Notes under the pieces: generated by a model
Seen by the model: only the letters and a program-made list of their open reading frames with translations
Told to the model about the DNA's origin: nothing
Database searches by the model: none
In this document: positions 19,801-50,300 of the stretch, piece by piece
Layout of the letters: every line of letters begins with the position of its first letter
Position numbering within the stretch: position 1 is the first letter of the stretch
Made by a program: the position numbers and the translations under genes
NCBI GenBank assembly: GCA_032622095.1
Contig: CP136065.1
Coordinates: forward strand, 240,973,530 to 241,037,529
Source of the DNA: Siphonodentalium dalli
Lineage: Eukaryota; Mollusca; Scaphopoda; Gadilida; Siphonodentaliidae
Length of the DNA: 64,000 nucleotides
Direction of reading: 5' to 3'

Positions 19801-22556
19801 TGCACCATAGCTGTTAAAGATATAATTGTTACAATATTAACATCATAATAACTCTATTTATTTACTTCTTACAATGGAACCTGAGTCATAACAGATTATG
19901 TTGTTGTGTTAGCTGCATAGTAAAAGTTATGGGATGATTGAGATTAGAGACCAACAAACACCTGAACATCTATATAAGTGAGGGGTGCATGTATAGACCT
20001 TGATATTAAATATGATTGATAATGGTTGGATATAAAATATTTTAATACAGAATTATCAGATAACTAAAGGAGAGATATGAGAAGGGTCAAATTGAAAATA
20101 TTAGAGTCATAACATTGGATCGCGTACAGTATACATGTACCTATGGTTAATTTTATTCTAAGCTGATCATTGGAAAGATACAATGTCTGTAACAGCAGAA
20201 ATATTATTAAATATTGGGTTAATATTCTCAAAACCATTCAATCAATACCAAAATCTATACATGTGAAGAATGTGTCACAATCAACCTGAATGAGATTATA
20301 AAAGTGATTGGGTGAAAAATATTTGACCAATAAGTAAGCTTCTAGAATACCAGAACCATTATTATTATCCTGCAGCCCAAATGCAATAGAGGGAATTTCA
20401 AAATAAGATATATCCTCAAATGATGAATATTCAATTGGTGGCTTATAATTAATAGAAATTCTTAGTGAACCTGGCCCAAGGCGAAAGAGATAATTTAAAA
20501 TCTGCCTATCAGATATGATGTGTCTATGTAATAGGTTAATTTTAATCCTGAAATACATGCAAGTGAAAAGTGGATCACGATCAACCTGGACATAGAATAG
20601 GAGAATGAACATATGATGTGTGGAGAGTGTTAATAATTTTCAATGACATCATATGATGGAACTAATGTGTGGATAAATTTTTTTCTCAAAATAAGACAAC
20701 AGTGTCTCTGTAAACAACAATTCTCTAAACAGCCATGCTCCAGAACATCCTTCACATGGACAATGGACTATTTGTATTAATGCCATGAACATGTTTCAAC
20801 AGGTTGGGTTAAATTACTATTTTACACAAACTGGAGTAAAGTATCATCAATCACTTAAATTTGACAGCTCTGGGAGCAGCAGTGGTTTAGCAAAGAGTAT
20901 CCAGTGTCATTTTCTGATTCCAATAATGCAGATTACTGTGTAAAGTTGTTTGTCTTAAATTCTCACAGGGCATATACAATAGGTAGTAAATTACTTGAAT
21001 TATAAAGGGCCATAACTCTGTTAAAATATATTGGATCAAACCCAAATTTGAACTTGATCTGTATTTCGGGGTGAGGACCACATGTACCAAATTTGGTGTA
21101 GATCAGATGAAAAATGTTTTGAGTCATAGCAGCTTGCGTGAGTACTAAGTAAACATAAGTGTGAAAAGGGTTAACAAAACGATACCAAAATCCATACAGA
21201 TAAAGAACGTGCTAACAAAGACCTAGTTAAGAAATATGAGGCAATTCATAAGCAAATTGTTTGACTTAGATGCATCAGATAGAATTTGTGCGCACCGCAA
21301 GGTTAATTATTTTCTAAATCGATCAACTGATCGATACCAAAAACTATACAGGTGAGGGGTGTGTCATCATAAACCTACATTTCAAATATGAACACAATCG
21401 GACAAAAAACACTTGGGTTATTGCATCGGATAGCACATGCCCATGTGTGGATGCAAAGTGTTAATAATTTCTAAACCGATCAATCGATCTATACCAAAAA
21501 CTATACAGGTGAGGGGTGTGTCATTGTAAACATGCACATGAAATTTGAACATGATCCGATAAAAGATACTCCAGTAATCGAATCGGATAGCAAGTGTCTA
21601 CGGACAGACGGACAGACGGACGGACGGACAGACGGACGGACGGACAGACGGACGGACGAACGACGGATGGTTGATCCGGACGTCAGCATTATGTGTACCA
21701 TACATGGTATGGGTACACATAAAAACCAGTAAGTTTAATAGTTTGCGAAATAAGAGTTTACCGTCTGCATGATTATAAGCATTATTCTCTACACATGATT
21801 TCAACAGGAAATCAACAAGCTTTTGACATGTGTCAAATGTGCAGACAAAATTTCCGGGAATGTCTATTGGTTATCGTCAGATCGCACACTTCATAATGTA
21901 TGATGGTGTTCTCAAATTGGTCTGAAAATATTAAGAAGTTAGACACTTACAATATATCTAATAGCTCTCCAACTTCTCCGACTATAGCTATAGAAGCAAC
22001 ACTTACAATATCCCATATAGCTCGCCGACTTCTCCGAACATAGCTAGAAGCAACACTTACAAAGTCTCAGATAGCTCCCAACTTAATTCTCCGACCATAG
22101 CTATAAGCTAGGAGCAACACTGACAATGTCTCAGATAGCTCCCAACTTATTTCTCCGACCATAGCTAGAAGCAACACTTACAATGTCTCAAATAGTTCCC
22201 TGACCATAGCTAGAAGCAACACTTACAATATCTCAGATAGCTCTCCGACTTCTCCGACCATAGCTATAAGCAACACTTACAATACCTCCGATAGCTCTCC
22301 GACCATATAGCTATAGAAGCAACACTTACAATGTCTCAGATAGCTCCCCAACTTAATTCTCTGAACATAGCTAGAAGCAACACTTACAATGTCTCAAATA
22401 TATCTCTCCGATTTCTCCGACCATAGCTATAGAAGTAACACTTACAATATCTCCGATAGCTCTCCGACTTCTCCGACCATAGCTAGAAGTAAGTTCCTGG
22501 GAGAATGGTACTGATTCCAATTCCTGTCCAAGGCGAACTTCCCCTGAAGCTCGCGA
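16604..22556 (-). CDS. DCTPP1: dCTP pyrophosphatase 1-like (MazG-type) gene, three exons seen
   Basis: Exons join as 22556..22446, 19162..19128 and 16821..16604, giving about 120 residues ending in a TGA stop. DCTPP1 is an all-alpha MazG-like enzyme that hydrolyses dCTP and modified dCTPs to the monophosphate and pyrophosphate. The order RNWNQYHSPRNLLLAM, EVGELSEIFQWKG, EEKVHLAQEMGDVLLYL, IDLPTAALNKIDLNAKKYP follows the family. The metal-binding acidic pairs are present: E-x2-E in EVGELSE and E-x2-D in EMGD. All junctions are GT..AG and keep frame. The protein is short by roughly 30-50 N-terminal residues, so an upstream exon with the start codon must lie above 22556; it was not identified. 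The first intron carries a donor-site minisatellite (21942-22445) and the second holds a LINE fragment. Confidence 0.88.
17100..17320. repeat. Local direct duplication in DCTPP1-like intron
   Basis: The segment containing gggcgggtccaatttcacgt followed by ccttgacctt occurs at about 17125 and 17252, roughly 127 bp apart. The flank has a tgcctgcctgtctgtctg microsatellite at 17059-17090. It is intronic repeat and no gene is seen. Confidence 0.75.
17632..17775. repeat. Three-copy minisatellite (~49-55 bp)
   Basis: The core acggaaatgttctcagcgtg recurs at about 17632, 17681 and 17736 with partly similar spacers. It is intronic relative to the minus-strand gene. No coding function is supported. Confidence 0.8.
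18256..18790 (-). pseudogene. Decayed LINE 3' fragment in DCTPP1-like intron
   Basis: Minus-strand reading gives FFPKCLAEWNALEPYC (about 18735-18690), then CGCGLGDETVDHYFFEC (about 18500-18450; C-x-C...H-x3-C), then LLFGNPYISDDMNYVIF and FIKETKRF in another frame. These are the hallmarks of the C-terminus of LINE ORF2, interrupted by a frameshift. The final part resembles FLYGVKGIS and FIAKTKRF in the copy at 12030-13105. Confidence 0.78.
19128..19162 (-). CDS. DCTPP1: DCTPP1-like, 35 nt micro-exon
   Basis: A 35 nt exon between acceptor ttttcag (ending 19163) and donor gtaagat (from 19127). It encodes QWKGEVKEGLP plus split codons on both sides. Joined to the exon at 22446 it restores EIFQWKGEVKEGLPDF, a conserved stretch of the family. 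It is too short to be found by ORF length and is supported by splice sites, frame and family match together. Confidence 0.88.
19969..21600. repeat. Diverged interspersed repeat block in intron
   Basis: Sub-motifs such as gaggggtgtgtcat, accaaaaactatacag and gttaataatttct recur at about 19975, 20245, 21185, 21340 and 21490, about 150-160 bp apart in the best-preserved part. The block ends in the GGAC/CAGA microsatellite. It is a tandem-like repeat of unknown class with no gene seen. Confidence 0.65.
21596..21661. repeat. GGAC/AGAC tetranucleotide microsatellite
   Basis: About 65 bp of ggacggac and agacggac units. It gives artificial SVRPSVRP-type or TDGRTDGR-type peptides on the two strands. 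Confidence 0.9.
21942..22445 (-). repeat. Minisatellite made of exon end plus 5' splice site (DCTPP1-like)
   Basis: Read on the minus strand, the unit is the last ~45 nt of the adjacent exon (cttctagctatggtcggaga through ctatcggagatatt) followed by gtaagtgttg. After the true donor at 22445 there are nine further junction copies; eight keep GTAAGTG and one reads GTCAGTG (near 22133). Spacing is about 42-70 bp because units carry different deletions. The repeated exon part encodes the E-x2-E metal motif region. Retaining the intron to the next donor adds an immediate in-frame TAA. Confidence 0.92.
22446..22556 (-). CDS. DCTPP1: DCTPP1-like, first visible exon
   Basis: It encodes RELQGKFALDRNWNQYHSPR and then NLLLAMVGEVGELSEI, ending with two bases of a split Phe codon at donor gtaagtg. 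The chosen acceptor is tctgatttcag just above 22556. An alternative acceptor (cacacag near 22590) would add about ten residues. No in-frame ATG lies between the upstream TAA (near 22625) and this region, so this is not the first coding exon unless a non-ATG start is used. Confidence 0.82.
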
Positions 22557-22629
22557 CTGAAATCAGAATTCGAGGCGTTCGTGTCAAGGGCAAGATGGAC
22601 GCATGCCGTTCTGTGTGGTGACAATTATC

Positions 22630-24240
22630 CGAGTATTCAAGAATGCATGCGTCCCCGCATTGATATATATTATCAGTCTACATATAACTAGACCAAGGTT
22701 TCCTTAACAGTCAGCTCTCATATGTTGAAAGCAATGAAAATTAGGTCTATATAGCTTTAATAAGACTGATATATTATGTGTAAAGTGGTCATTCGCTATA
22801 CATTACGCAAAGAGTGTACGATAAGCAAAACGCTCAGCATGCACTGGGGGGGGGGGGCACTAAGGCTGAACAGATCACTCTCATAAAAAAAGTGCTAAAG
22901 GGTACACAGGTCATGAAAATGTGCTGAATTGTACACAGGTTTTGAAATGTCGTTCTAAATTACTTTTAGTTTTCGTATCTGCGATGATTTCCGTTAAAGA
23001 ATAATTGTTTGCGTTCCAATGAACATTAAAATTAACTGAAAACAAACTGCTAATAGGCGCCAGACTTTCAGAAACACAGTTTAATGAACGGTGTTGGTGA
23101 TCGAGCAGAAACCATGTGTACCCTTCAGCACATGTTCAAGCCATGTGTACCCTTCAGCGGCACTGAGCCCACTGTGGATCATAGTGCAGGATTTAGGTGA
23201 CTTTTTCGTGGTGCCATTTCGATTTATTTTATAACAGTATTAACTAAATAATGACGTATATTCTACCACGATGTATCAATCATTTATCGTATATTTCGGT
23301 TTTACGCGCAGTTATCTATATGAAAATGTGCTCGTCTTTTCGTTACCGGAATAGTACAATTATATTATATAGATTATATTTGCATAAAGATTGCATATAT
23401 GCGTTATATCGAACAAACGATATATATACAAAAGAGCATTCACATCCTATCTAAGATGACGCAGATTCATGTATGGGAGTATTTTGCACTATGTATATAA
23501 ATCGTAACTTCGGGGGAAAATGAATAGACAAATTTTAATTTTACACGTGGATCTTGTTCGCGTCATGCTGTCTCGTGATCATGTTAAAGATCACTCAAAC
23601 ATGACTGCGATATATACAGAGATCCTAAGTTGGCACATATGAATTTTCTATTTTTCGCACTAAGTCCCATAACTCAATAAAAATAAATGGACGAAACCCG
23701 TTGTACGTAAATATCCTTTCACCTTAGTGGTTCATTAGCAGATAAAAGATCATTAAAATCCGACAGCCGATGACTGGGATATTGAGTACCAAAGTTCAGT
23801 CGGACTTTTCACACTAAGTTCCATATAACTCAACAAAAGAAAAATGAATGGACAAAACCCGTTGTATGTAAATATCCTTCCCCATGCAATGGTGGTTCAT
23901 CGGGGCTTTGGACGGACTTACGTCTTACGTATATACGGACGGACTCACATACGGACGGACGGAACCCATTGCTATACCCCCCCCCCCCGCCAAATTTCGT
24001 TCACGAGGATAACAACAACAATAAAAAACGGCGAGGCGACAATCGTGTCGCTCGGAACGTATGGAGAAAACTCAAGGACTCAGTCATGCAGGGACTGTCA
24101 TCATCAGAAAAAAATCGCTTTAAATTGTGTCTAATATATCAGTGTATGACCAAGAAGTTCGGAGAACAAGCCAATAATAGTCTGCAGTCAACCTGAATTT
24201 GAATTTCCATATAGAGTATGCCAGTATAAATATATATATA
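22630..24240. other. Upstream region of DCTPP1-like gene, no exon recognised
   Basis: The missing first exon and promoter may lie here, but nothing was identified. Visible features are G and C runs (near 22847-22857 and 23977-23988), a short direct repeat of catgtgtacccttcagc (about 23113 and 23142), and a duplicated block with atggacaaaacccgttgta (about 23688 and 23848). Confidence 0.5.
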
Positions 24241-24254
24241 TATAGAATCATACA

Positions 24255-24830
24255 TTCTAGGCTACTGGAATGAACATATAAACTCAACTGCATCAAAAGC
24301 CTGGAATAGACTAAATATGATCAAACGAATAAAAAGCCTGGAATAGACTAAATATGATCAAACGATATCGATATAGGCTGAGTAGAAAAACACTGGAAAG
24401 AATCTATTACACCTACATATAATAGTACATATGTCCAATACTCGAATATGCGTCCTCATTATGGAATAGTATACCAGATTACGTAGCTGATGACAATGAA
24501 GATCCATATCCAAAATTAAATGGCCCGTGGAGAAAGAAACACCCACTTGTTCAGTTTTACAAAATGAAAAATGAACTTGCCCCTGCACATTTAAGGTTAA
24601 ATCCCACCTATTGATGAAAATTTTACATACCATTTTAGAAAACTCATTATAAGGACACCTTCTGACATTATAATTTATAACACACACTCGTATGATAAAT
24701 TTTCCTGCCATCTGCTATCAGGGACTGGAACAATCTGGCGGATGACTTAAGACGAATTCCAAAACTATCGGGTTTCAAGGCAAAATTATTTTCCCGCCCT
24801 CAAAAGAAACCGCCCTACGTCCATCATTGC
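24255..24830 (+). pseudogene. Decayed LINE 3' fragment
   Basis: The plus strand reads WNEHINSTASKAWNRLNMIK, RYRLSRKTLERIYYTYI, PILEYASSLWNSIPDYVA and, after frame changes, PSAIRDWNNLADDLRRIPKL. These are typical of the thumb and C-terminal region of LINE ORF2. Stops and frameshifts are frequent. A 34 bp segment (aaaagcctggaatagactaa...) is tandemly duplicated at 24296 and 24330. Confidence 0.75.
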
Positions 24831-24851
24831 AATTCTCGAAAGGCACATTCA

Positions 24852-25354
24852 CGGTGGGGAATCACGTGGTTTCGAGGTTGGTGAGTACCAGGCATACAAA
24901 ATGGCCGAGGCTAATGCAAGCACACAAAAACTAAATATATGAGGAACTGACACAAAACATAGCATTTTGAATGTTACGAGCATGCCTATAGTTCATTTGT
25001 GAAACAAGTTGGTACCTTATTTGTTCGGAAATACTCGGTGGTTTTCTATAACATTCTGACCAAAGTTGCCAGTCGGAGGTGCGTGGAACATACCATTCCA
25101 TAACTCTAGGAGAATCCTACGACCGACAACTTTGGTCAGAAAGTTAGAGCAAACAAATGTGAATTTGGACACAAATGGGGGTGACAGCTTGTTTGAAAAA
25201 TAGTATAGCATAGTATAGTATATAAAAAATACTATGTAATATGCCATAGCTTGGTTTATTTACATTTTACCTCGTTTCTGGTCGCGTTTTTGATCCCCTC
25301 GGCCATTTTGAATGCGTGATACTCATCAACTCGAAACCACGTGATTCCCCACGT
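24852..25354. repeat. Foldback element with ~57 bp inverted ends
   Basis: Positions 24852-24910 (ggggaatcacgtggtttcga ... aatggccgagg) are the inverse of 25298-25354. A second, inner inverted pair sits at about 25058-25077 and 25122-25140 (tgaccaaagttg / caactttggtca). There is no coding sequence; it is MITE-like. Confidence 0.75.
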
Positions 25355-27000: not shown

Positions 27001-27002
27001 TA

Positions 27003-28680: not shown

Positions 28681-28706
28681 GTTTACAGTCATTAGACTCT
28701 TTGTGT

Positions 28707-28786
28707 GATCACCGAAGTTAAGCAACATCGATCTCGGTTAGTCCTTGGATGGTTGACCGGCTGGGAATTCCGGGGTGCTGTCAACT
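28707..28786 (+). pseudogene. 5S rRNA-derived fragment (pseudogene or SINE head)
   Basis: About 80 nt matches the 3' two-thirds of animal 5S rRNA: gatcaccgaagttaagcaac, then ggttagtccttggatgg, gaccggctgggaa and ccggggtgctgt. This part includes the internal control region elements of a 5S gene. The first ~40 nt of 5S is not present upstream and several conserved bases differ. It is therefore a truncated pseudogene or part of a 5S-derived SINE. Confidence 0.8.
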
Positions 28787-29159
28787 TTCGGTGAGACTCC
28801 CACACTCAGCTTCCCCCGACGTACATATATATATAATATCAAGCATTCGACCTGACCACGGGTTTACGATTTGTGGAAATCGGGAGTAACGTTTAGTGTT
28901 GTGACCATACATGCAATTTTGTGTCAATTAATGATATGTGGTTAAAACATGTACGAAAGATTGGTTACTTGGACGTATGTACATCCTGATCCAGAAAGAT
29001 AAAATATGAAACATCGAAATTTCCACTGCATGCACATTGCCGAATACAGAATCATTAATCTTCTTCGAACTCCGAGTCCCGCTTCGAGTGATAAACATAG
29101 ACGGAGGAATACAAACAATAATTCAGTATACATGCATACGAGCCAAAAACAGACTTGAA

Positions 29160-30780: not shown

Positions 30781-30782
30781 AT

Positions 30783-32244: not shown

Positions 32245-32367
32245 ATGCCTGGAAAGAAAGATTTCGAAAGGCTGTCAACAACAGTAAGGCCAATCAACTA
32301 TAACATATGGTTACATCCAGATTTGAAGGCTTTTGAATTCCAAGGCAAGGAAGTTATCGATGTAGAG
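32245..32367 (+). CDS. NPEPPS: NPEPPS-like exon 1
   Basis: 41 codons, [20 protein letters not shown] onward to KEVIDVE, phase 0, donor gtaagc. It covers the first strands of the N-terminal saddle domain. Confidence 0.9.
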
Positions 32368-35300
32368 GTAAGCATCGCTTATTTTGTATTTGAACATTTG
32401 TGGATGTTATTGACTTATTGTTAAAGGGACTTAAAGAGGTACATTACACTAAATCCGGCCATATATGGATGGGACCATCTCCTTTTATACTCAACAGAAT
32501 ATATGCAACTAAGGAATGAATTTGAGCCATGGGTCAGTGCAAAATACACTCATGTGCCCTATGATGAACAACATGCAAACAACATGGTAATTATAATGAA
32601 AATGAATTTATGACTCTTGTCACTTCTAGGAATCGAGATTAAAGGGAAAAAAAGAAAACATTATATATTATAATACTGATTGGTTATATTTGTGAAAACA
32701 TTTCAATGTATTTAAATTAAAAATTTATTTAATTTTTATTGAAATCAAGAACAAGGCATGTTGACATTAAACCAAACAGGTAACACTAGAGATACACAAT
32801 TTCACTTATATGTCACACATAGCATTATAATAAAGATATATAATGTTATTGTTCCTGTTTTTGATTTGGTGTAGAATATAAGAGTGGAGAAGATGAGGCA
32901 AAGTGTATGTATTTTTTAACCAAAAAATATTTACAAAAATATGAGACAGCAATGATGTTTATAGCTTTAATTTTTATTTTTTTTGAACATTATTGCAACC
33001 ACCTCACCTCATCAGTTTTTCAACCCTTCCATGACTGTAACTTCTTAAAAATTTACGAAAACACTGTGCCAATGCATTCTCTTATATATGAGAGTCTCCC
33101 ATAAGGGAGCCTCACATATATAAGATAATACATTGGCCTAACAATATTTACCTTGACCATAGGCATATAATCTTTCTGCCAGTATTGGATTCTACTTTCT
33201 ATTTTCTACTTTCAGATCTCTGAAGCCACCGACGCTGTTACTATCAATAGTGTTGATATAGACATCCATTCAGCGTCTTATTCAGCAAAAGGTAAAAGCT
33301 CACTTTTGACAAATTTAGTTTTTTTTTGGGGGGGGGGGGGGTTTCATCTAATTTTGTATCATTGAATATCTTAATTATTACCGTGTACACCATCTATCTA
33401 GTACAAACACTTGAAGGTTATACTAAGACTCTGAGACTATGAATATAGAGGTGATATATATTTATATACATATGTATATCTATATATATATATTCAGGTC
33501 CTGTCCACTCATGCTATGCTATGACTTGGCTAGTGACCGTGTTTAGGTCGTATCAGCTTTTGTTTTGATTGTCACACAGTGAGTGAGACCATGTGCACAA
33601 CGATTAATCTTAATCCTATAGATTTTACACATACTTTCAATCTAGTTGCCACTTGAGCTGGCCCTTAGCACAAATGTCAACCAGCATGGAACCTGTGGAC
33701 CTGGCGGAGTTATTACCATTTTTCGACATAGAAATGTTTTATGTTTTTTATTTTAGAGTTATTGACCCTTTCTCAACACATTTAAGATGTGCAACATATT
33801 TTAGTGAAAATGCACTCGCAACTTTCTTATTTTCTTCAGATTCAGAGAAATCACTTAATGCAGCATTCACATTCAACACAGACGATGAGAAAGTCACATT
33901 CAAATTTGAGGAACAATTGCAGGTAAGCTATTTTATATATATATCCAGCAGGCTTGAAAATATAGTGCCGGTCATCTGCAGAATGAGGTCCCCAGAGGGG
34001 TCAAGTTAGTGATGCTGCCCGGCACCGCTGGCTAACATCACTAAATTCACCCTCTAAGGACCTCATTCTGCTTAAGCCTCATCTTCTCTGGAGAGTATTT
34101 TTATAATCAAATTAAAAAGTTTTTTATTCTCGTTAGAAACTTCTTTAGAAAGTTTAATTTTCTTTTTTAGTTTATTTTCTCAATATTCCAAAAATGGAAG
34201 ACAACACTATGTATAATCGGTGCACTTCAACATCTGGGAACTTAGTTCTATGTCTACTAAGAAAGCATGATTTGGAACAGTAAACACAGAAGTGAACAAA
34301 AAATCAATGCAGAAGTGAAACGTCTGCAAAATTCATCACAGTATTGCGCGCGCATCACAATTTCACCGATCCATTTGGCAATAGAGTTACCTCGTGACGT
34401 CACAGAGTTCTGCTAGTCCCGACTCGAATGAGTCCAATTTGACTTTCGGGAGTCCAATGTGACTTTTTCCCCTGATTATCATATGATGGCTTTTACCCAG
34501 TCATAAATAGTGTTAGTTAAGGGATGGATAATAATATATTATATAGATAATGAGTTCTTCCCGTGAATCCCAATATTAAAACAGAAAGAAACTTGAAATA
34601 CCCCAGTAACTTTTTCTTAGATTAATGAAGCAGGTTTAACTGTATTTTACGTATATGGAGTATGCATGTGTAGTCATACGATAACAATGTGTGGAATTAT
34701 TTGTTGTTCGGTCCCCAAGATCGCACCTTGGTCCAAATATGGGGCCAATCTTTTGCCTTTATCTCAATGCAAAACAGATACGATTTGTGCCCATTTTCAG
34801 CCTGAATATCCCCAATCACATTCTTTCATTTTCACCTAGTGTCAGCCTAGAGTCATTAGCCTATTAACTGGCAAAACTATGCCCACAGCACTCTAAATAT
34901 CAATTAAATGAGTTTTGGCATGTTTTGAGATAGGTGTAGCCATCATTTGATCTTCAAGCTGATTCATCAGTGATTATGTTTAGAGATGGGGGAAATTGAC
35001 AGAATTAAAACAAGGATATTTGGCATGTACGGCAAGTTATTTGTTTTATGGAAATTTTCAAGTTTGACTGGCCATGTCTAGTTCAAGTTTTCTGATAGGA
35101 AAATCATAAAATGTATAAACTTATTATGAAGATATCTCAATTTTTTGTTTTTAAATAGCTGTCGTCAGTGGGTATTTGTGGGAAGATGGTGGATTATTTA
35201 GTAACTCAACTTTGTAAGCTCAAATTGTTATTGTATTTTGCGGTAGTACAATTCGAAATGGCTAAAGGGAGTTTTTTGCCACTATCTAGTGATACTCTTG

Positions 35301-38300
35301 TTCCCCATTGTAGTTCCCGAACCCAAATTACCCAGGATAAGCTATGGTATCTTATCTGATAAATTGTGTTCAATAACTGAAATGTGCGAACACAAATTTT
35401 GTTTTGAAAAATGTTTGAAGATTGGCTGAAAGAGTGATGTCAATAGATCATAGGTCTGTTTTAATTTAATTTCTATATATTTTATCTTTTTACAGCCAGG
35501 TAGTGGTACCTTGAGTATTTCATTCCTGGGAAAACTTAATGACAAAATGAAGGGTTTTTACAGAAGTAAATACACAGAGAACGGAGAAGAACGATTTGGT
35601 GCAGTAACTCAGTTTGAGGTAGGTAGATAGTTTAAGGTAGGTAGATTTGGTGCAGTAACATGGTTTGAGGTAGGTAGATTTGGTGCAGTAACACGGTTTG
35701 AGGTAGGTACATGTAGATTTTGTGCAGAAACACAGTTTGAGGTAAGTACATGTAGATTTTGTGCAGAAACACTGTTTGAGGTAGGTACATGTAGATTTTG
35801 TGCAGAAACACGGTTTGAGGTAGGTACTAGGGCTGGACGATATTAACGAAAATAAAAACTGCGATTTTTTTAAATTAAAACCGTGGTTAACGATATAATC
35901 GCGTTTTTTTAAAACATCAGATACTAGTAACTTAAAACAGTTTCTCACTGTTCGCTAGAATCACATCATTGTCATTAATTTTGACAAGTTGACGTCAATA
36001 ATAACATACACAACCACTCAACCAATGACAACCTCATGCTCGATCGATATTTGGAACGAAAAGTAAATTCACCGGTTAAATTCCGCTATTCGGACAATTT
36101 CGTTCCGGTGACTTGACAAATTCTGGTATATACCGATAATTAATAAAACCATTATCTGGTCTATGCCAAAACTAAAAGTGTTCTATACTATAGTATCCTT
36201 TTCTAACTCGGTATATTCAACCATGTTGAGTAAATACATGTTGTTCCCGATGACACTTGCGTCGCTTGACAAATGGAAATGTGGTTTACCGTCAAGACAA
36301 ATTTTAGCGAAGTCCGCACACACGTAGTACATAACTTTTGGAATTCTGCCAAGCAAGGACACCATGTATTTTTGGGCGGGTTTGAAGCCCTAATTCTATA
36401 TTTTTGGTTTTAACCAATCGCCGTGAGTGGTTTCTTCTAGACGAGAAGGGGGCGGTATCTTTGCTCATTTACTATTTTGATTGACGGTGCATGTGCATCA
36501 TTGTACTGAAGGAAGAGGCGTGGCAAAACTGACATTCATATTGATCTATCACCTGATCAGTCAATTCATTTGGTGAATTCTCTTGTAATAAAAAGTATGC
36601 AGGGAAGTCGGAGGGTTTGTGTAATATTGTGAGCGAAAGGGGGACGTATTCTGGGTTTTCATATCCCCCTAATTTCGTTAGTCGTCCTAAACGTTGTTTA
36701 CTATGATTATTGAATATTGAAAAGTCAGGACACAGGGATTTAGTTGGAATTTAAAACTTAAATAACTCGATTTAGGCTTGAGTTAAACTATTTGTTTGTA
36801 TACGCTTATGATGGTCTGGCACCCTCTAATTGCCGACGATATTACGATTATTTTAGTTTAGACGATATTACTGACGATATTGAAATATTAACCGGGTATT
36901 GACGATTAATCGGGAAACCGCCCAGCACTAGTAGGTACATGTAGATTTGGGGTGCAGTAACTCAGTTTGAGGTAGGTAGTTAGTATGAGGTAGGTAGATT
37001 TGGTGCAGTAACATGGTTTGAGGTAGGTAGATTTTGTGCAGAAACACAGTTTGAGTTAGGTAGATTTGGTGCAGTAACATGGTTTGAGGTAGGTACATGT
37101 AGATTTGGTGCAGTAACTCAGTTTGAGGTAGTTAGTTAGTATGAGGTAGGTAGATTTGGTGCAGTAACAAGGTTTGAGGTAGGTAGATTTGGTGCAGTAA
37201 CACGGTTTGAGGTAGGTACATGTAGATTTTGTGCAGAAACACAGTTTGAGGTAGGTAGATAGTTTGAGGTAGGTAGATTTGGTGCAGTAACTCAGTTTGA
37301 GGTAGGTACATACAGATTTTGAACAAAACAGGACATATTGTGTTATTGGTCTGTCTGTCTATCCATTCACTTTTGGTTTCCAGATGATAAACTTTAGATA
37401 GTCTCAACTGAATGTAATTAAATTTGGTATGTGGCTTTACTAGCACAAATACAGAACAAGCTGGAATTCGCAATTAATTTTCATTTCCGGATGATATAAA
37501 AAGTAAGTCTGAACGTAATGGAATGAAATTTGGTATTGTAAATTTACTAGCCCAAAATACAGGTCAAGTTCGAATTTGGCCATCCAATTTTTACCAGAGT
37601 TATGGCCCTTTGTTGGAATTACCATGGGCATATTTTGCTAGCGATGCACTTGTTGTATATCTACTTTTCAGGCGACTGACGCTAGAAGAGCCTTTCCTTG
37701 TTGGGATGAGCCAGCTATCAAGGCAACATTCGACGTGAGCCTCGTTGTGCCAAAAGATAGAGTTGCTCTGTCCAATATGGTGAGTTTCAAACTGTCGTTT
37801 GTTGAATGTATTATCTGAACATTTCCCAACAAAGAACATGAATCTTTCTGCACTTGCATTAGCTTTTTGTCTTCTGTCTACTTTTATTACCTGAACATCC
37901 CTCGATATGAAGAATAGACCATTCTAATATATACTTTTTTAACTGAATGGGAGATCCATCTAGTAAGGACAGGGATAAAGTCTAATTTGCTTCAAAGCCA
38001 CATGGAGGTCTTTGCTCCAAAATACACGGTATAATGTTCACTTTTGAACTACCTTTCTATGAGCATTATATGTCCCAGAAAGATGCATTGAAGTCATAAA
38101 AAATGCAACTTCGTACACGATGATTGGGTCCCAATAAAATATTGCGACATTTGCAATTTTGGAATCGACATCCGAATAACTTGCGACATCCGGAAAAGGT
38201 ATATTGCTTTATCTTAACATGAAACAATTAAAAAAACTTCACATGCTGTTTTTCTTTGTTTAAATCATCAAAATTATTTAGCACTTTAAACGTTTCAGAG

Positions 38301-41300
38301 TGAAGACAGATGTAGATTTTGTTGCGACACATGTGGAAATTTTACGCGACAGCTGATTAAGAAATTTGCCCGACGAAAACAAAATTATCTCAAATTTATC
38401 AAAAACTATAAGAAACAAAATATGTATTTTCAGTGCTATATCAAAGAATTTGTTTGGAATTCTTCCTGTATGTATGTTTTTACATAATTTTGGGGTTTGA
38501 ATGAGCCATGTCAAAATAATATGCTCTAATTAATTGACCCCTTTATTGTGGTTGTTGGCCGGTAATGACCGCAGTCATACCACAGTCAAGAGGTATCACC
38601 GTGAATACTAGTGGCTGACGTGTGGTATCTGCCGGTAAACTGCGGTAGGATTTTTAACTGCGATAACCAAGTAAATGGCTGCCATGTTAATTTTTTGTGA
38701 TGGCGATTTCAATCTATATATTTTGAAACACATGAGCGTTCGACGTCAGGTGCTATTTTCAATCACCAAGTTTACAATTGACTCTGAATAAAAATATATA
38801 AAAAAAAAAAAAAAAGTTTACAATTGATCTTTATTTTCAAGTTAACTAAACACAAAACAAAATTTCATAAATTCTATTGTTGACGGTTTATTCAACATAC
38901 AAAGTTGGTCACTGACCGACATTTGCGATTGCATCATCAATGCAGCATTATGCCTTGCAAGAAATAAACAAATACTATGGTGTGGTCAACCTTGTTAATG
39001 AGGGTCGATTAATTAGAGCATAATAATGAGAAAATCGTTTACTACAGCCTGTCACAAGCACCAAAGACTTTGAGGAGGATGGTAACTTGTCAGTCATGAC
39101 ATATGAGAGAACGCCGATCATGTCGACATACCTGTTAGCCTTCGTTATCGGAGAGTATGACTATGTCGAGGGTACCGATTCCGACGGAGTTCTCATCAGG
39201 GTCTACACACCTAAAGGAAAGAAGGAACAGGGCAGATTCGCTCTTGAGGTAATTACAACTGTAAAATAATGTGGGTTGCTAGTCGGGGGAATTTGCTTTT
39301 GGACCAAAGTGTTCCCCAATTGGTTATCTAGATAGCATGATCACTATGAAAAATGTAAATAACATAATGGAAAATACTATTAAAATACATACAATACAAG
39401 TCTTCCAGTGTAAGAAATGTTTAATTAACCAGTAAAGACACTGCTTACCATTGAAAAGCTCAAACAGTTATTGCATATTGAAATAACAGTATTTTGTGTG
39501 CACTCACATGTTTGTTGTCGATCTGTTACCAAGTCGAAACTGTTACACATAATTATGCTGGTACTATTGCTGTATCCACAAACCCATTAAAACAGTTGTG
39601 TCATTTTGTATATCTGGCACTTCCATTATCACAAGCTGGTTTACATCAAAGGAAACTTGGACTAGTGTTCACGAGTTGCAAGCCTGAGTTTAGTGTGCCT
39701 GTCATTTGCAGAATGAGGTCCCCAGAGGGTGAATTTAGTGATGCTATCTCGCATAGTGGGCTAGCATCACCAAATTCACCCTCTAGGGGCCTCATTCTGC
39801 ATGGCTTCATCTGATATGGGAGAGATAGACTCAGATTGAAGTTCTCAAATGGTGAATATTGTGATGTGAACCCATTGGAAACCTTGATTATGCAATGTTT
39901 CGTCTGCCAATTTGGGGATATAGAGAAACTAAACTAAAAAAGAAATATAATCTTTGTGAAGAAGTTTCTGTAGAAATTTGATAATAAAGAAACTTTCCAG
40001 AGAAAATAAGGCCTAAGCAGAATGAGGTCCCCAGAGGGTGAATTTACTGATGCTAGCCCGCTATTTTCTGCTTTTAGGTTGCTGTGAAAACACTGCCTTT
40101 TTACAACAATTATTTCAAGATTCCATATCCACTACCAAAGATGGACTTGATAGCGATAGCAGATTTTGCAGCAGGTAAAATGCTTGGTTATTATGAGCAG
40201 CTAAAGGGTTACTATACACTAAATCCGGCCGTTTATGGAACCATCTCATTTTATACTCAACAGAATATATGCAACAAATGAATGAATTTGAGCCATGAAT
40301 TAGTGCACAAAACACTCGTGTGCTCTATGAAAAATGCAAACAACATAGTAGTTGTAATGAAAATGAATTTATAACTCCAGTCATAATTTCATTTTCAATA
40401 TAATTACCATGTTGTTTGCATTATTCATAGAACACACAAGTTTATTTTGCACTTATCCTTGGCTCAAATTAATTCATTAGTTGCATATATTCTGTCGAGT
40501 ATAAAAGGTGATGGTCCCATAAATGACCGGATTTAGTGTACAGTCCCCCTTTAACCGTTGGCTTTGAACCCTGGAAAATATTTTGAAGATGCCACATTCC
40601 TAGGGTTGTAGGAGAAAATTGTATATTTCATATAATATACGAAACATTATATAATAGAATCTATTTCAAATGTAAAGTACTATGCAGTCAATTAGAAACA
40701 TATATCATCGATGCAGTCAATTTGAAAACATAAACATATATCGTGGATGCAGTCAATTCGAAAACACGAACATATATCTTGGATGCATTCAATTAGAAAA
40801 CACAAAACATTTATCGGATAAATATGTTTGTAGCAAGTAGTTGACCTTGCTATGCTATGCACGCCAAAGTTATCACCAGTGGAATTTGTTTTTAGAAATT
40901 ACGTCACAGCTTTTAGAAGACATCTGCTGGTGAGTTTGGGGAATTAATTTTCAAGTGTAAATAAGGATGCAGTCTATTAGAAAACACAAACATTTATCGT
41001 ATAAACCAGTTTATATCCAGTGGTTGACCTTGTTATGCCATTTGCTCATCAGAGCTGTCACCATTTGCATTTGTTTATAGTAATTGCGTCATTCAATTTT
41101 ACAATCATTCAATTTTACAATTGTAAAATGTTATAATTGTAAAACTGTTGGAGTTTTTACATGATGTGCTGGACTAAGTTTACTTCTTGTTATGATATAC
41201 AGTGAAACCTGTTATGAGAGACCACCCATTTTGCCAAGGATAAATGATCGTTCATGACAAGTGGTCGGCGACGACGGGTTTGACCTATTTATGTATCAGT

Positions 41301-44300
41301 GTAGGATGTGTCTATGGTTGTATCTGAATCTGATGTCTGCGCTTGTAGATTTTTTTTTTATATCATGAGTGATACCCACTGGTTGAAAATAATGGAGATT
41401 ATATGTGTTTTACTTATGTTTAATCTTGAATAAGATATACTTAAATAAAATAATACGATAGAACAGCTGACCAGATAACTCGTCGGGCACGTGACAGAAC
41501 TTCGTCAGAAGGAAGAAACTTTGGAAATAAAATCACTAATTGAGCATTGAAACAAGTTAATTTAATGTAACATTTTGTTGTATCTTTTGTTTAATAAATA
41601 TGAATCCCTAACAAACGCTCCAAGCTATGATTTGGGTAAGTATAGTGGGAGAAATCAATAAAATATTCCAAGAGAAAGCTGGTTTTTCCGCTGGTGGTCA
41701 GAACACCGGTACATTTTGACAAAGGTCAAGGTTGTTTCTTAGCAACTGATTGGGGAACACAACAGGGGGAGAATTAGATTCATTAAAAAATAGAGTATTT
41801 CCCCTTTGATTATAAACACAATTAAACTGGTCAGCTATTCACACACATTAATAATTTTGCCACAATGTTATTGCTTGACAAGAAAGAACTTGTCTAACTT
41901 TGGTTGAGCTGCAGGTTTCACTGATAATTGTCTTTCTTCTACGGCTGTCTCAGTGGACATAACGCAGTTAAAAACGTCATTGAAGTAATTGAAGTGCACG
42001 AGAAAGATTTGGAAATATAACTGTGACATTGCGGTCTATGAACCTATATAGGTAGAAGAAGCCCACGTAATACAAGCCGAGATGATTTTAAGCTTTCCGT
42101 AGATTATAAGTAAAACAATACAATTCCAGACCGTGCGTCTGCGAAGTGTAAACATGAATCCATTCTCGAGGCCAAAGTGACTCCATAATTAACTGCTTAC
42201 ATAAACCCTTTTATCTACCAAATGACCCTCAAGTGTCTTCTATTCATACATTCTTAATCACCAGCGAGCAATTCTCACCTCTTTAAATATCCGGTAACCT
42301 TAATTGACATGTGAAACTAATACCTTACGCGCATCAAACACTGACAGACTCGGGGGTTCAGAACGGGGAATAAAAGTACATAAGTTTGTGCATTTAAACT
42401 TTTACTTTTTTGTGCACAAATTATATATTTTTTCGATGGAATTGGTCGTTCATAACAAGTAAATATTTATGTTTTTGCCGCGATATACCGATCGGTGGTC
42501 GCGTTAGACAGGAGGTCGCTCACGGCAGGTCGTTTATATAGCGAAAAGTGTCCGTACAAAAGGAATTTGGTCGGAAAAGACAGGTGGTCGGTCACGGCAG
42601 TGGTCGTAAATTGCAGTTTTCACTGTAACAGTATTGTTTTCATCTTAAAATGAAAAACCAAAATAAAATTGAAAAAATCAGAATACTGTGTCTCAATCCA
42701 TGTAGAGGTGCCACGATTATTGATTTTGAAAATCGATAATCGGTCGTCAATAATCGACTATAATTGATTAATCGTACCTAATATTAATAACATCAGTGGA
42801 AGTATTCCGTAACATACCTATTGCCTGGGTGCTGGTTAACTCAATAACTGCATTGTCGCTGGTTGGTTGAGGCATCGGCTGATGTAATTTTCACATTAAT
42901 AAAGTGCATCTAAACCACCGTTAATGACTAATGAGCACAATGTATTGAATACCAGTACAGTTCTCGGCGATGTTACGGTTATAATATTTGTGAGTTCATT
43001 AGAACGAACATGGTGATTAATTTCAGTTTTATGAATAGCCACATCTACAAACAATATAAAAGTAGGAATGAACGATGGACCGCCAGCGGTTCCTAAAGAA
43101 AGAAATCAAATGTTACGGAAACTATAAGTTTCACCAAACTTCCAGAGCGTGGTTAACAATCACAAACGTGTGCCCCCCACCCGCAAATTGCAGGACTCCG
43201 AACAAGCTAAGTATTTGATAGTAGTCAGTTTCATTCAGCATTCACCACACGATAGCCTTTACTAGTAGTAGTACATGTAACTTCTAAGTATAGGCTACAT
43301 TTGTACTTATACAAAGTACACTCACAATTGCATTGCAGAGAACATCGCTGATTAAAATACCATATATATTGGTTCCCTGGTTTTAGAGAGAATGTCAATC
43401 AACTTCCCATTGGTCCAATCAGATTCAATGGCGAGTGCATTCAGTTCATTGAACACGGTGACAGTCGGCACATTTCAAAGACATAGTGCCACCTTTCAAG
43501 TATATTAAAATATACGAGTGAACGACGCAATGAATGTGTTCAAATCTGCAGTGCCAACTGTTTGCAACATATATCAGTAGTACTCATGTTATTGGAAATC
43601 TCTTTGGTACGCGATCAAAGGATGTTAACACCTCGGTTATAGATTAAACTGATTACATCCGATATAAATAACGCAGATTAATCGACGATGGAAATGGTAA
43701 TCGATTATCGGCTTTATCAACGGTTCATCGATTATATGATTAATCGTGGCACCCCTAAATCCATGTTCAGTTGGATTCAAATATGAAACCAATCATCACC
43801 ATTACAACATTCCTTAACTTGATAATTCACATGTTTAGTATAGTTGAGACCTTCAACTCTTGACTTTGGGAGACATTACCTCACAAACAGCGGTAGTAAG
43901 TCATATATTGGGGTTGTTATTACAATGTTTTGTTTTTGGGTGATCTTCTGGTCGCATAAGGGAATTGTTTGGATCTTTAATATAATACACAGTGGTTATC
44001 ATAAAATTCAAATTAAGGCTGATAGTAATAATTTTTCAGGTGCTATGGAGAACTGGGGTTTGGTCACCTACAGAGAAACAGCTTTACTTGTTGATGAGAA
44101 AAACTCTTCTGCGACAGTGAAGCAATGGGTAGCTCTGGTTGTTGGCCATGAACTTGCTCATCAGTGGTTTGGAAACCTTGTCACAATGGTATGAAATTGG
44201 ACTGTAATAAAAAATTATTCTTTAGTGTTTCAAAGTCACACCCAATTGATTTATTTTGGTCAACAATTTTCTCCCATGGAAATTACTATGAGTGTCGTCA

Positions 44301-47300
44301 CTTCATATTTAAGGCATATTGTCTTGAAGACCATGAATCAACCGGATGTCGGGCAAATAACAATGAAATGCATTTTTGTTTTTTATTTCTACACACTCAG
44401 AAAGTTAGTGCCTATTAGCAAGCTCAAAATAGGGTTGATTAGGCCAAAAAAAAGTGTTTTGATTCTCGAGCATAGCCGCGTCTGGAAAAAAGGCCCACGT
44501 TGAACCATTTTATTACGATTTTCAATTTGACCGAACCTGTCAAATGATAACACGAAAATAGGAAACTAGAAAACAGAAATTAGTTATGTTTCAAACATCA
44601 AATATGATAGACATACAATGGTGTATGTGTTGGTATTAAAAAAAACTGACACTAGGCAATGATAACTACCAGGTATATTGTCACCACAAGCTGCCAAAAC
44701 CCCAAGTTTATTAAGTCAAATGTGTTCAAATATTTCGGTATTTTATAAATTCAAAAAGGTAAACGGTAAACAATTCTGAGATTTACAATTTCGGGAACGC
44801 AAACCGGAAAGAAATATGGTGCGTATTGGCGATGTGTATGCTGGTTTAATATTTGAAGTTTTCATGGCTGGCATGTATTGAGATACATAATACTTATTCA
44901 GATACGGCAGAATAAGGCATTCTAGACTTTCTATGAAGATCACTATATATATCTTTTCGTTTCGATTGTATTCAATTTCCGTATTTTTATTTGAGTAATT
45001 GAACTGGATATTTAGTTCTGTTTGTTATTATTAAACATGCTTGTTTAAACGAAACAATATTAGAAACGCAAATATTCTCTTCCCAATGTGACAACAGGTG
45101 ATAAAACGTTAGTAGACTGGTCCATCTACAACGTTGAGAACGATCTTATTATGGTCATTCATTATAGTGGAATACATTAGTTTATATCAAAACAATGTTG
45201 TCCTTACATTTTCTTAACCTGGGAAGGTATAATAACCCATGCTAACTATGGGCATTATCCCCAAAATAAAAATAAAACCCTCGCTCCCTCATCGATTCTC
45301 AAAATAAATTGCCTGAGAATCAAAAAACTTTTTTTATTTGGCCTTATGTGTTTTTGTGCAAATTTAAGGACAAAGGATGTATAATCACTAGAGCTGAAAT
45401 GGTTGACCCATTCTTCTAACCGGTTAACCATCGGGGTTAAACGGATTTCAACCGGTTAACCGCTAAATATCTAGCGGAATTCTCTCACACTAATTATGTC
45501 GACATTATGCCATGCTCCAGGGACAAACCTAGGTGAGAAGTAGTAGCTGAAATAAAGACCTTATTCACGGCATTTAACGATATTCAAAAACACGCATTCC
45601 TTGTTCTTTTGCTGGCTCTCGTGATGGGGAATGAGCAAGTGAAATTTGTGAATGGCAGGAGAGATCGCTTATTTGCCGTGATCAGCATATGTTTGGGCAT
45701 TTGTAAAACGAGTAAAATAGTATGGGTATTGGTAAAACGAGTAACAAAACTATATATTAAAGATCTGTAATATATCATTATCATCATTGGTATATCCTCC
45801 AATGCATTATATATAAAGACAAGAAAGTAATAACTAGAGAACAAAAAGGAAGGTCAGTTAGGTCAGACTCGCAGTCCTATTCAGTATTCGAGCTATTCGT
45901 CGGTATCATGATAGCGGACACAAGTGTTGGGAGGTTATATAATTTACGTTTCGGTTTCGGTTTTGGTTTTAGCATGCAATCACTTAACATATAGCAATTA
46001 CTGCCAAATTGAGTGTTAATTAGTCCCACAGGCACAACCAGTTACAGAGTAGCATGGAGCATCAATTTCCTTGATAAAAGGGAAGATTATTGAATAAGTT
46101 TTGGGTTGCTTCAACTACGATGTCTGTTTGAGTCACTCAATTGAATTGATCATATTAAATCACAACACGGAGGAAGAACGGGAAGAGTGAAAACATTGTG
46201 CAGCTGATCTCAATCTTCAAACTTTGTCGACTTACATAGTTTTTATAAACCCCACTGTAAAACAGTTTTATATATAGTATGTCGTGGTGTGGTTCCAATT
46301 TGAATCCATGTTGCTTCGTGCAGTATTAACTATTAAGTTACGAAAGCATGCATTGCCACACAACGTCACTTTTACGTTGTCACTTCCTTGTGTGCATTCA
46401 GAATTGATACACAGTGACTGCACACATGCTTTTGTCGGAAGAAAACTTCAAAGGGTCGGAATTGATTGAAGGTCGCCGACACTTCCAGGCAGTTCGAGAA
46501 TTGCTACTAAGTATCTGATACTACCGCGTGTACCAATTAATGCTTGCATTGCACTCTACTATCGGTGACACGGGATTTAGTATTAGTTTTGCATCATTTA
46601 ACCTAATATTTTGAGGATTATTCACGTTCACATTCAACTGACAACGGGATGCGGTTACGTCCGGTTCATTTTTTTCTAACCGGTTACGTCGCTAACCGGA
46701 TGCTAACCGGTTAACCGTCTAACCGTTTCAGCTCTAATAATCACCAGACAAAGGATGTGTAATCACCAGACAAAGGATGTGTAATCACCAGACAAAGGAT
46801 GTGTAATCACCAGACAAAGGATGTATAATCACCAGACAAAGGATGTGTAATCACCAGACAAAGGATGTATAATCACCAGACAAATCTTGAACTTTTCCAA
46901 CAAATTCATACTACTTTCAATATTTTTTCAGGAATGGTGGACACACTTGTGGTTAAATGAGGGCTTCGCTAGTTGGATCGAGTATCTTTGTGTGGACTTC
47001 TGTTTCCCAGACTTCGACATTTGGACCCAGTTTGTCACTCAGGATTTAGGACGAGCATTGGATCTTGATGCTCTTGATAACAGTCATCCCATTGAGGTGA
47101 TTTCCAGTCTGTGTAAACTTATGCTCAGAGTCATACTGAGTCTATCTTAGTCTCACAGAAATGCAGTGCTGGCTTTGTGAAAAATCTCTGAGAGCTAAAA
47201 ATTCCCCTGCATGGTTAGCTCTCACAGGGGCAATTCCTGTATTTGTCTTTATTTGAAATAATCCAGCTGTATAGATAAAACAATTCAAATTCCTTGAAAT

Positions 47301-50300
47301 AACTCATATTTTAAAGAGTTTATATTTGATGATGCACAACGTTACAAAAATTCAAAATGAATTCTTGTTACAAACAACTTTAGTCTAGAAGTTGACAGCG
47401 TGTGTGTTTGTTTATGTTGCAAAACGAAACTGCAGAAAGAATGAATGTGTCACCTTTATTGTCAATTGTCTTAGAATAATTGTGCATTTGTACTGTTCAA
47501 AGAGGTATCATAAGAGAGAGAGCTTGGGGGGGTATTCTGGAATCAGATTGGCCATCTGTCTGTCCATGGATTCAATTTTGTCAAAGCTTTTATTCCTATA
47601 TTTTTCGGTCAATATTTTTAAAACTTGGCACAGATATTTAGTACCATGGTAACCTGTGCACCTGCGATTAAGAGGTCCGTAAAACTTTTTGTGTGTGTGT
47701 AATTATCCATCTTTTTCGACTTTAAACATATTCTAAAAATGCATAATTTTTGGCCGTATGCTTTCTCAGAATGTTCTTAGTCAATTCTTTTCTCATTTCA
47801 GGTTGCCGTTGGACACCCGTCAGAAGTTGATGAGATATTTGATTCTATCTCTTATAGTAAGGGAGCATCAGTGATCCGGATGTTACACAGTTATATAGGA
47901 GATGATGTAAGTGTGTTGTATGATTGTTACCTAGTTAGGTTCTGGCATGGGAATCTTCATTGGTGACCCAATCCGGATGTTACACAGTTATATAGGAGAT
48001 GATGTAAGTGTGTTGTATGATTGTTACCTAGTTAGGTTCTGGCATGGGAATCTTCATTGGTGACCCAATCCGGATGTTACAGTTATATAGGAGATAATGT
48101 AATTATGTTGTATGATTGTTACCTATATTGGTTCTAGCATGAGAATCTTCAAAGAGCGACCAATGGCACTCCAAGTGGGTAAATGTGCCAAAAATATGAA
48201 AGTCTGTAAAAACATCTCCAGTAAAACATGGAGAAATGGATCAACTTCATTCTTAAATTCATTACTGATAGTTCTCCAATAATGAAATTGCACATGTTGA
48301 AACTATTGTTATGTAAACAAAACTGTTACAATAATTTGTCTACAAACATCGCTAATCCTGTAGTATGCGCAAATATTTTAGTCTGTATGTGATTTTCAGA
48401 ATATTTGTTTATGCCTTGACTTTTTACCATAAAGTTTGGTATATAAAAACTATTATTAACAAGACAGTCAACGACTGTGGAGACGGCCACCAGACTGTAA
48501 AGACTGAGAAGACTGGGACTCGGAAGACCATAAGAGTTAGTACTTGTCAAATTCACTTAAAACAAGTAGTCCTAAAGAAGACATAGCCTAGAGGGTCTCC
48601 GTTGAGCAGTGGGGTGTCCACCTTGAAATATGGTCCAGATCCCCCCACCCCACATAGTCCATAGTCTGCTCCCTCCCAACTGAAGCAAACACACTCCCAA
48701 GTTCGTAAAATTCCTTTGCACATGTTGGAATTTTACAACTGATATCTCAACTTCCTCAAGCTTTCCTAACTGTTACAAAGTTACAACCTGACATGCCCCC
48801 CTTTTTAATGGTGTACCCCATTCAAACAAATTTTGATCCCAACTCTCCATTGGCCATATACACCAAATGCCATTTCTTTATTGGTCGAACCCATTTTCAC
48901 AAATCTGTAACCCAGTCCCAAGTAACACAAGGACCCTCCATACTAGTTAATACTAGGAGCTATTTTAAGAATTACTATGGGGGAAGAGTTATGTACCTGG
49001 TCGCACTCCTATTTGACCTGGTGAACCCATTTAAACAAATCTGAATCCCAGTCACCCAAGGGGAAAAGAATTATGTCCGTGGCTCTGACCCTATTTGACT
49101 CAGTGATCCAATTCTGAATCCAATCTGAATCCTAGTCACCCATACCAAATATAAGCTGAATTAGCCTGATGGTTCTTGATAGGAAGACATTTTAAGAATT
49201 ACAATGGATGGACAAGTCCCTGGCTCCGCCCTTATTTGACCAGGTGACCTCATTTTAACACATCTGTATCCTTGTCACCCAAGAGTTGTGTCCCTGACTG
49301 CCCCTCTTTGACCCAATGACCCCATTTGAACAAATCTGAACCCCAGTCACCCAAGGACCCTCCATACCAAATATAAGCTAAATCGGCCCAATGGTTCTTG
49401 AGAAGGAAGTCATTCTAAGAATTACTATGGAGGAATAGAGTTATGGCCCTGCTTTCGCAACTATTTGACCCAGTGACCTCATTTGAACAAATCTGAAATT
49501 CTGAATGTGAGTCACCCAGGGAACATCCACTCCAAATATGAACCCATTCGGTTTTATGGTTCCGAAGAAGATGTTTAAAGAATTGTTGACAGACAGACAG
49601 ATGGATGGATTGACGAGGAGTGATGACTATAGCTCCTCTGGAGACTTCGTCTCAGGTGAGCTAATAACTAACTCTCATGAAAATTGTTCTAGGATTTCCG
49701 AAAAGGAATGCACCAGTACCTGAAGCAGTATAAATATAAAAACACACTGACGGAAAATCTATGGAAGTGTCTGGAAGACGCGAGCAGTAAACCAGTGACA
49801 GCCATAATGGATAAATGGACCTCTCAGATGGGCTTCCCTGTCATCAAGGTTTGTTAACTCTCAGATGGAATCCCTGTCATCAAGGTTTGTTAACTCTCAG
49901 ATGTGTTCACAGAGGGTGAATTTAGTTATGCTAGCCCGCAATGCAGGATAGCATCACTAAATTCACCCTCTGGCGACCTCATTCTGCAAATGACAGGCAC
50001 ACTAAACTCAGGCTTGGTTCAAAATCCATCAACACCACAAAGCCCATTGAACAAAAAACTGTTGAAAGCGACGTGATTACACAGCAGTTCACATAGCATT
50101 GAATTATTCCTTTAATTGTCCCCCGAAAATTTTATTTTGGGGACTATAGAAACGGGCTCCGTCCATCCGTCCGTTTGGACGTACGTTCGTCCGTCACACT
50201 TTTGAGTACCTTCATGGTGTAATCATCTCCTCCTACAGATTTCATCCCAGAGATTTGAAACTTCAGAATATTGTTGCCCATATATTGAAGATGTGCAACA

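Follow-up and report, generated by a model that had tools for sequence, protein, structure and literature searches.

Genes and boundary arrays in the window

We analysed a stretch of 64,000 nucleotides (nt), hereafter the window (G000:C5:240973530-241037529), from a genome of 2.23 Gb in 9 contigs. The window contains 14 of the 20 exons of an NPEPPS gene on the + strand, the remainder lying beyond it, and a DCTPP1 gene of three exons on the - strand, whose joined exon translations carry a MazG-like domain (Pfam). At four exon ends of these two genes, the last coding nucleotides, the donor (5′ splice site) and the beginning of the intron are repeated in tandem into the intron. These donor-spanning arrays, and similar arrays at other exon edges, are the subject of this report. 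NPEPPS was identified by homology to the Pinctada NPEPPS; its exons 1-3 and some later splice sites were placed by eye and by reading frame. The exon-proximal splice sites alone give a single stop-free NPEPPS frame of 850 amino acids (19 exons joined, with exon 20 read to the first stop). We term the genome mollusc-like because this single gene groups with 12 molluscs (support 100/99), away from two amphioxus sequences, in a phylogenetic tree with 26 NPEPPS sequences.

The original prediction, made from the letters of the window, had described such arrays at DCTPP1 exon 1 and at NPEPPS exons 4, 10 and 11, each with a unit that joins the end of the exon, the donor and the start of the intron, and all four were found at these places with this composition (Table 1). 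The array units begin within conserved coding sequence; their source is exonic. Beyond the true copy, there are nine copies in DCTPP1 exon 1, 17 scored copies in NPEPPS exon 4 (over both blocks of its array), two in exon 10, and one plus a fragment in exon 11. The ends of the insertion that divides the exon 4 array resemble, on visual inspection only, those of a non-autonomous hAT element, and no strong inverted repeat was found at these ends.

For a direct test, the 31-mer around each donor (25 exonic and 6 intronic nt) was sought within 1.5 kb downstream, and exon starts were likewise sought upstream. The donor 31-mers of NPEPPS exons 4, 10 and 11 have downstream copies scoring 28, 31 and 24.5 of 31, respectively, whereas the best score among the remaining 11 of the 14 NPEPPS donors in the window is 10.5. 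The 14 NPEPPS exon starts in the window, the first of which is the start codon and has no acceptor, reached at most 11 in the upstream test.

Table 1 Exons and donor-spanning arrays in the window (positions are counted from the first nucleotide of the window)
Feature	Position	Strand	Basis or remark
DCTPP1 exon 2, without array	19128..19162	-	sequence
DCTPP1 donor-spanning array, ~54-nt unit x 10, exonic part 44 nt	21943..22489	-	
DCTPP1 exon 1 3′ end (...VGEVGELSEI), first array copy	22446..22489	-	MazG-like domain over joined exons
NPEPPS exons 1-14	32245..60116	+	translation, frame; continues to exon 20 outside window
NPEPPS exon 4 (ends ...RFGAVTQFE)	35496..35618	+	translation, frame, Pinctada homology
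Exon 4 donor-spanning array, block 1: 25 exonic nt + GTAGGTAG, units 33/39/18 nt	35594..35835	+	
Insertion of ~1.1 kb dividing the exon 4 array	35836..36930	.	extent by eye
Exon 4 donor-spanning array, block 2	36931..37310	+	
NPEPPS exon 10 (ends ...SYIGDD)	47802..47906	+	
Exon 10 donor-spanning array, 97-nt unit x 2.9: 33 exonic nt + donor + intron	47874..48151	+	
NPEPPS exon 11 (ends ...GFPVIK)	49693..49848	+	
Exon 11 donor-spanning array, 36-nt unit x 2.3: 28 exonic nt + 8 nt intron	49821..49903	+	

Boundary arrays outside the window

The neighbouring 260 kb were joined to the window, and the resulting 324-kb stretch was used for an extended analysis. Tandem Repeats Finder (TRF) reported 157 non-overlapping arrays with a period of at least 12 in this stretch, covering 13.2% of the sequence. 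Exons called by homology or by profile provided 19 donors and 19 acceptors in NPEPPS, 12 and 12 in PKG, 2 and 2 in DCTPP1, and 3 and 4 in MAD1. In PKG, no junction was found for the intron between residues 217 and 219, which was left out for this reason, and the junction at residues 297-352 is unsure. The MAD1 exons come from a Pfam profile search with their edges placed at the best-scoring sites; the identity of MAD1 is supported by a PDB match (7b1f, E = 8e-17) in addition to Pfam.

Further donors in this stretch carry arrays of the same kind. These are NPEPPS exon 19 (31 nt x 4.7), which was first noticed via the exon calls; the PKG exon ending in ...VFVME (64 nt x 56); a second PKG exon at 240966640 (213 nt x 4.9), which was counted although its unit includes just 6 exonic nt; and the MAD1 exon ending in ...DFLMFK (70 nt x 5.9). 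Donor arrays were also found at an exon for an ePHD-type zinc finger (35 nt x 18), for which the Pfam match (E = 1.7e-6, 28.6 bits) is just under the cut-off of 29.1, and at two putative coiled-coil exons in the MAD1 region, which gave no MAD match in Pfam. The ePHD exon and the two coiled-coil exons were found via their arrays and are therefore kept outside the counts of 36 donors and 37 acceptors used below.

Arrays also span acceptors. They lie at NPEPPS exon 17 (241044888; 34 nt x 2.3), at PKG 240964912 (33 nt, 14 copies), at PKG 240943133 (unit of about 68 nt, with the true copy preceded by 3 others) and at a putative exon in the MAD1 region (241133867; 60 nt x 11.5) that also has a donor array. 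The earlier statement that no duplication occurs at acceptors is thus correct inside the window, where no exon start scored above 11 of 31, but fails outside it, at NPEPPS exon 17 and two PKG exons. Arrays at exon edges were found in five genes of the 324-kb stretch, and on a second chromosome as described below.

Copy divergence and decoy donors

Conservation was scored in six donor arrays with clean copies, leaving out NPEPPS exons 10 and 11, MAD1a and MAD1b; the positions of some decoy copies are off by up to 3 nt. The GT is retained in 104 of the 107 scored downstream copies, in agreement with the earlier description of these structures as arrays of decoy donors. The divergence of the copies from their consensus, with the six arrays in the same order throughout, is 2.0, 8.3, 2.6, 2.5, 1.3 and 2.2% in the donor core (positions -3 to +6), 13.1, 13.5, 3.9, 14.8, 4.3 and 5.4% in the exonic part, and 20.6, 13.9, 6.6, 5.6, 2.0 and 8.0% in the intronic part.

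Because 106 of the 107 scored decoys would add an in-frame stop and the remaining one would shift the frame, the exon-proximal donor is predicted to be the sole productive site among the scored donors of these arrays. We also considered that the frame might be kept through units that are multiples of three. Only NPEPPS exon 4 has such units among the six arrays, and a stop lies in its first unit; this candidate was rejected.

In the 324-kb stretch, 14 arrays at exon edges were compared with the 143 others. They do not differ in copy identity (90.5 vs 87.7%, p = 0.38), in the GC content of the unit (p = 0.81) or in period, and they carry more copies (median 4.8 vs 2.4, p = 0.007).

Selection might keep the decoy arrays, for example to hold U1 small nuclear ribonucleoprotein in long introns or to lead part of the transcripts to decay via unproductive splicing. 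The retention of GT, the low divergence of the donor core, the stops that nearly all decoys would insert and the higher copy number of the edge arrays are consistent with this idea. However, stops are frequent in any intron segment, and 28 of the 36 donors of the same genes have no array. Moreover, the donor core is not outstanding among windows of the same width in any of the six arrays (window-rank 0.15-0.42), because of which its low divergence is at most a hint of constraint. We consider selection for the arrays quite unlikely.

The divergence of the copies bears also on whether the arrays are real. Assemblies commonly fail at tandem arrays, and an assembly artefact has to be considered. 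However, the copies differ by substitutions and indels (4-15% in the exonic parts), the unit length varies inside arrays, an insertion divides one array, and the NPEPPS frame is intact around the arrays. An artefact is therefore highly improbable.

Frequency of arrays at exon edges

An array starting in the exon and spanning the donor was found by TRF at 7 of the 33 donors of NPEPPS, PKG and DCTPP1. The same array test at 13,958 intronic points of these three genes gave 1.9% (p = 2.5e-6). The addition of MAD1, with an array at one of three donors, raises the count to 8/36 (p = 3e-7 against 1.9%). The claim of the original prediction that the arrays are more frequent than expected by chance is borne out by these figures, but a selection effect reduces its support outside the window, since PKG and MAD1 were followed up because an array had already been seen there. 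Without the 16 donors of the window, arrays are present at 4 of 20 donors (p = 5e-4). Removal of one ascertaining array per followed-up gene leaves 2/18 (p = 0.05), and removal of every previously seen array outside NPEPPS leaves 1/17 (p = 0.28). For both edges taken together, the corrected counts outside the window are 5/40 (p = 0.001) and, with the strictest correction, 4/39 (p = 0.008). An excess of arrays at exon edges in the 324-kb stretch is likely, and it rests on few cases.

At acceptors, arrays were found in 2/33 by TRF and in 3/33 by alignment, in 3/37 with MAD1 (p = 0.04) and in 3/22 outside the window (p = 0.01). The difference between donors and acceptors is not significant overall (8/36 vs 3/37, Fisher’s exact test: p = 0.11) or outside the window (4/20 vs 3/22, p = 0.69). 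The phenomenon thus belongs to exon edges, and the specificity for donors that had been proposed is not supported. The same comparison weighs on the proposal that a process linked to the 5′ splice site makes repeated copies of donor-spanning DNA. Such a process would account for the TRF counts of 7/33 donors and 2/33 acceptors, but not for acceptor arrays of like kind. In addition, donor strength by position weight matrix is equal with and without arrays (p = 1.0), which also speaks against weak donors as the cause of the arrays. A donor-directed process seems to us improbable.

Other local properties were examined as possible causes of the excess. Intron lengths overlap between donors with and without arrays. 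The GC content of the unit, as noted above, is equal in edge arrays and others, and GC content was rejected as the cause. Greater age was rejected as well, as the copy identity of the edge arrays is not lower than that of other arrays. Array starts per kb, classed by the GC of their first 60 nt, amount to 0.32-0.63 (38-70% GC), 0.19-0.36 (25-38%) and 1.84 (<25%). From these rates, composition may account for a factor of up to about three, but not of ten. If array starts are truly in local excess at exon edges, neither the strength of the donors nor the age of the arrays explains this, and composition does so at most in part.

The pattern may also involve no special process and no excess, but only the generic density of arrays together with discovery bias. 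Arrays make up 13.2% of the DNA, and in this view the window, PKG and MAD1 drew attention because arrays happened to fall on exons there. The corrected donor counts outside the window (2/18 and, at the strictest, 1/17) agree with this possibility, although the corrected counts for both edges do not. Data from other parts of the genome bear on it further.

Arrays elsewhere in the genome

Exons for myosin heads served as a sample from other loci. Pfam matched 85 of them, and 12, on C3, C4, C5 and C8, were picked blind to arrays. None of the 12 donors and none of the 12 acceptors has an edge array. Five of these exons represent one paralogous exon, the flanks covered about 230 nt, and the edges were placed at the best-scoring sites. 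A count of 0/12 donors has p = 0.05 under the local rate and is expected at a rate of 2%; the comparison of the 324-kb locus with the myosin exons for both edges gave p = 0.06 (Fisher’s exact test). When the myosin exons are added to the corrected counts outside the window, both edges together give 5/64 (p = 0.009) and, at the strictest, 4/63 (p = 0.04). Judged by the profile matches, about eleven myosin-head genes that resemble one another are clustered at C4 274.2-275.5 Mb.

We also examined C1, taking the 5′ ends of eight non-satellite arrays with three AGGTAAGT sites, among the matches listed, to about 232 Mb. Three of these eight start at a donor whose exon is verified by Pfam, the domains encoded being LEM (7e-9), USP47_C (2e-12) and plexin PSI (6e-8). 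The phenomenon is therefore present on a second chromosome. Of the other listed arrays, two are exon-like without a convincing Pfam match, two, without an exon, have one dispersed repeat in common, and for one the sampled end still lies within the array. Such arrays thus recur at exons that the original prediction did not cover, namely at NPEPPS exon 19 and in PKG, MAD1 and the ePHD gene on C5, and at the LEM, USP47_C and plexin PSI exons on C1; in this respect its interpretation is supported. The three C1 cases would also fit a donor-directed process, although these arrays were selected by a donor motif.

Motif counts over the whole genome showed no excess; these are counts of matches, not of arrays. 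AGGTAAGT occurring twice with N6 gave 6 matches against 7 for the reversed control, AGGTAAGT three times gave 2151 against 2127, and AAGGTAAGTW three times gave 73 against 144. A satellite at C1 231.98-232.05 Mb, with a 26-bp unit containing AGGTAAGT, inflates the second of these figures and swamps donor-motif counts. By reading of the listed matches, the triple AAGGTAAGTW corresponds to about nine distinct forward arrays. By a rough estimate that assumes the numbers of exons and the shares of motifs, the distinct motif arrays listed are fewer than expected under the local donor rate. We infer that the genome-wide share of edge arrays is well below the local share.

The array-free myosin exons and the raw numbers of motif triples favour generic density with discovery bias as the explanation. 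On the other hand, an excess for both edges persists when the myosin exons are included, and the start of three of the eight listed C1 arrays at Pfam-verified exons may point the same way. We regard the absence of any real excess as unlikely.

Comparison with known systems

Boundary repeats of amphioxus Adh3 were earlier named “mirages” (PMC3087553). Mirages are described there as minisatellite-like tandem duplications across an intron-exon boundary, which may be a 5′ or a 3′ one, with AG/GT in many but not all copies. Their units measure 150-160 bp in BflGb6, 157 bp in BflGb9 and 10-72 bp in Adh3, and the BflGb6 units are 81-100% identical, with 3 and 6 units in two haplotypes. The Adh3 data and reverse transcription PCR (RT-PCR) of the globin genes suggest that mirages leave regular splicing undisturbed; the mechanism is called unclear, and mirages are proposed as a route to new introns (PMC3087553). 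According to the portion of PMC3902484 used here, lancelet PGBD5 and troponin C also contain mirages.

The arrays reported here resemble mirages in that the repeat unit spans the exon-intron boundary, in that both donors and acceptors are affected, and in that the splice signal is present in many but not all copies (GT in 104/107 donor copies; acceptor copies were judged by eye). Judged from their sequence, they fall within the structural definition of a mirage. They differ in that the host groups with molluscs (on one gene) and is not a cephalochordate, a property that is not part of the structural definition, and in that five genes of one 324-kb stretch carry them, with up to 56 copies, compared with 3 and 6 in BflGb6. 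RT-PCR and length variation are known for amphioxus, whereas the present data are the sequence of one assembly. In searches of an open-licence library, no report of mirage-type repeats outside lancelets was found, which is no proof of absence.

Two other systems were compared on the basis of the sections cited. In the model of Rogers, introns are gained by tandem duplication of AGGT segments, with potato RdRp, ATP2A1 and fission yeast as cases (PMC4974935). There, as here, gene segments bearing splice sites are duplicated in tandem, but in that model a new intron forms, whereas here the duplicates were observed next to existing exons of conserved genes, on their intronic side. UBC and VCX3A contain dual-specific splice sites, an AG|GT array with one site per repeat unit (PMC10809524). 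The array of splice sites, one in each unit, is shared with our case. As described there, however, the repeat is an in-frame part of the coding sequence, and its sites are used, while here none of the 107 donor decoys is predicted to give an open in-frame extension.

Other repeats and elements in the window

The window contains further repeats. A satellite with an 83-bp unit occupies positions 2274-9259, with 84 copies and 93% matches between copies. A retrotransposon whose frames for reverse transcriptase and tyrosine recombinase overlap lies in NPEPPS intron 13 (55943-58617, - strand); its Pfam matches are RVT_1 (1.4e-5, under the cut-off) and Phage_integrase (2.8e-6, just over the cut-off). 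We take this element to be of the DIRS/Ngaro type. Several copies of a short palindromic element (GCCAATGCATTCTCTTATATATGCGAG...), by eye similar to miniature inverted-repeat transposable elements, were found at 15846-16050, 33080-33140, 51255-51430 and 59640-59760, and a second dispersed element (GCAGAATGAGGTCCCCAGAGGGTGAATTTAGTGATGCTA...) recurs across introns. Positions 28690-28790 are 5S rRNA-like by eye and may represent a 5S-derived short interspersed nuclear element, with no Rfam match at the gathering score; an Rfam scan of positions 9000-64000 gave no matches.

Origin and significance of the boundary arrays

The arrays are probably ordinary mirage-type minisatellites that by chance lie across an exon edge and are tolerated since the exon-proximal splice site still works. 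A short tandem duplication, mostly of 31-97 nt, would first span the exon edge and so include exonic bases, the splice site and part of the intron. The size of the array would then shift through slippage or unequal exchange, in the same way as in the numerous tandem arrays found elsewhere in this genome. The copy adjoining the body of the exon, which is the first at a donor and the last at an acceptor, would hold an intact splice site in place. The mRNA need not alter, and the surplus copies may remain in the intron as silent decoys. Arrays would stop inside exons close to their edges because duplications that spread through the exon break the protein and would be lost. Both this mode of expansion and the choice of the exon-proximal copy by the spliceosome are inferred from sequence, and the tolerance is supported by the regular splicing reported for the same structure in amphioxus, in the cited part of that work.

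Two observations weigh against chance and tolerance as the whole account. First, arrays are present at 8/36 donors, compared with 1.9% of the intronic points; tolerance by itself accounts for the sparing of exon interiors, but not for such an excess over the interior of introns. Second, in all six scored arrays the donor core has diverged less than either of the other two regions of the unit. Exon edges may instead be genuine hot spots of tandem duplication in this lineage, at donors and acceptors alike, as in cephalochordates. We hold this to be rather unlikely.

How the spliceosome chooses among identical copies is an open question. With donor copies in a row, exonic context included, the effects of transcription order and exon definition become testable apart from the strength of the site. 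If exon edges are true hot spots, there would be genes whose spliceosome must pick the exon-proximal site from up to 57 near-identical ones. Such genes would provide a natural experiment on splice-site choice, and their arrays would be a source from which new introns or unproductive isoforms could arise.

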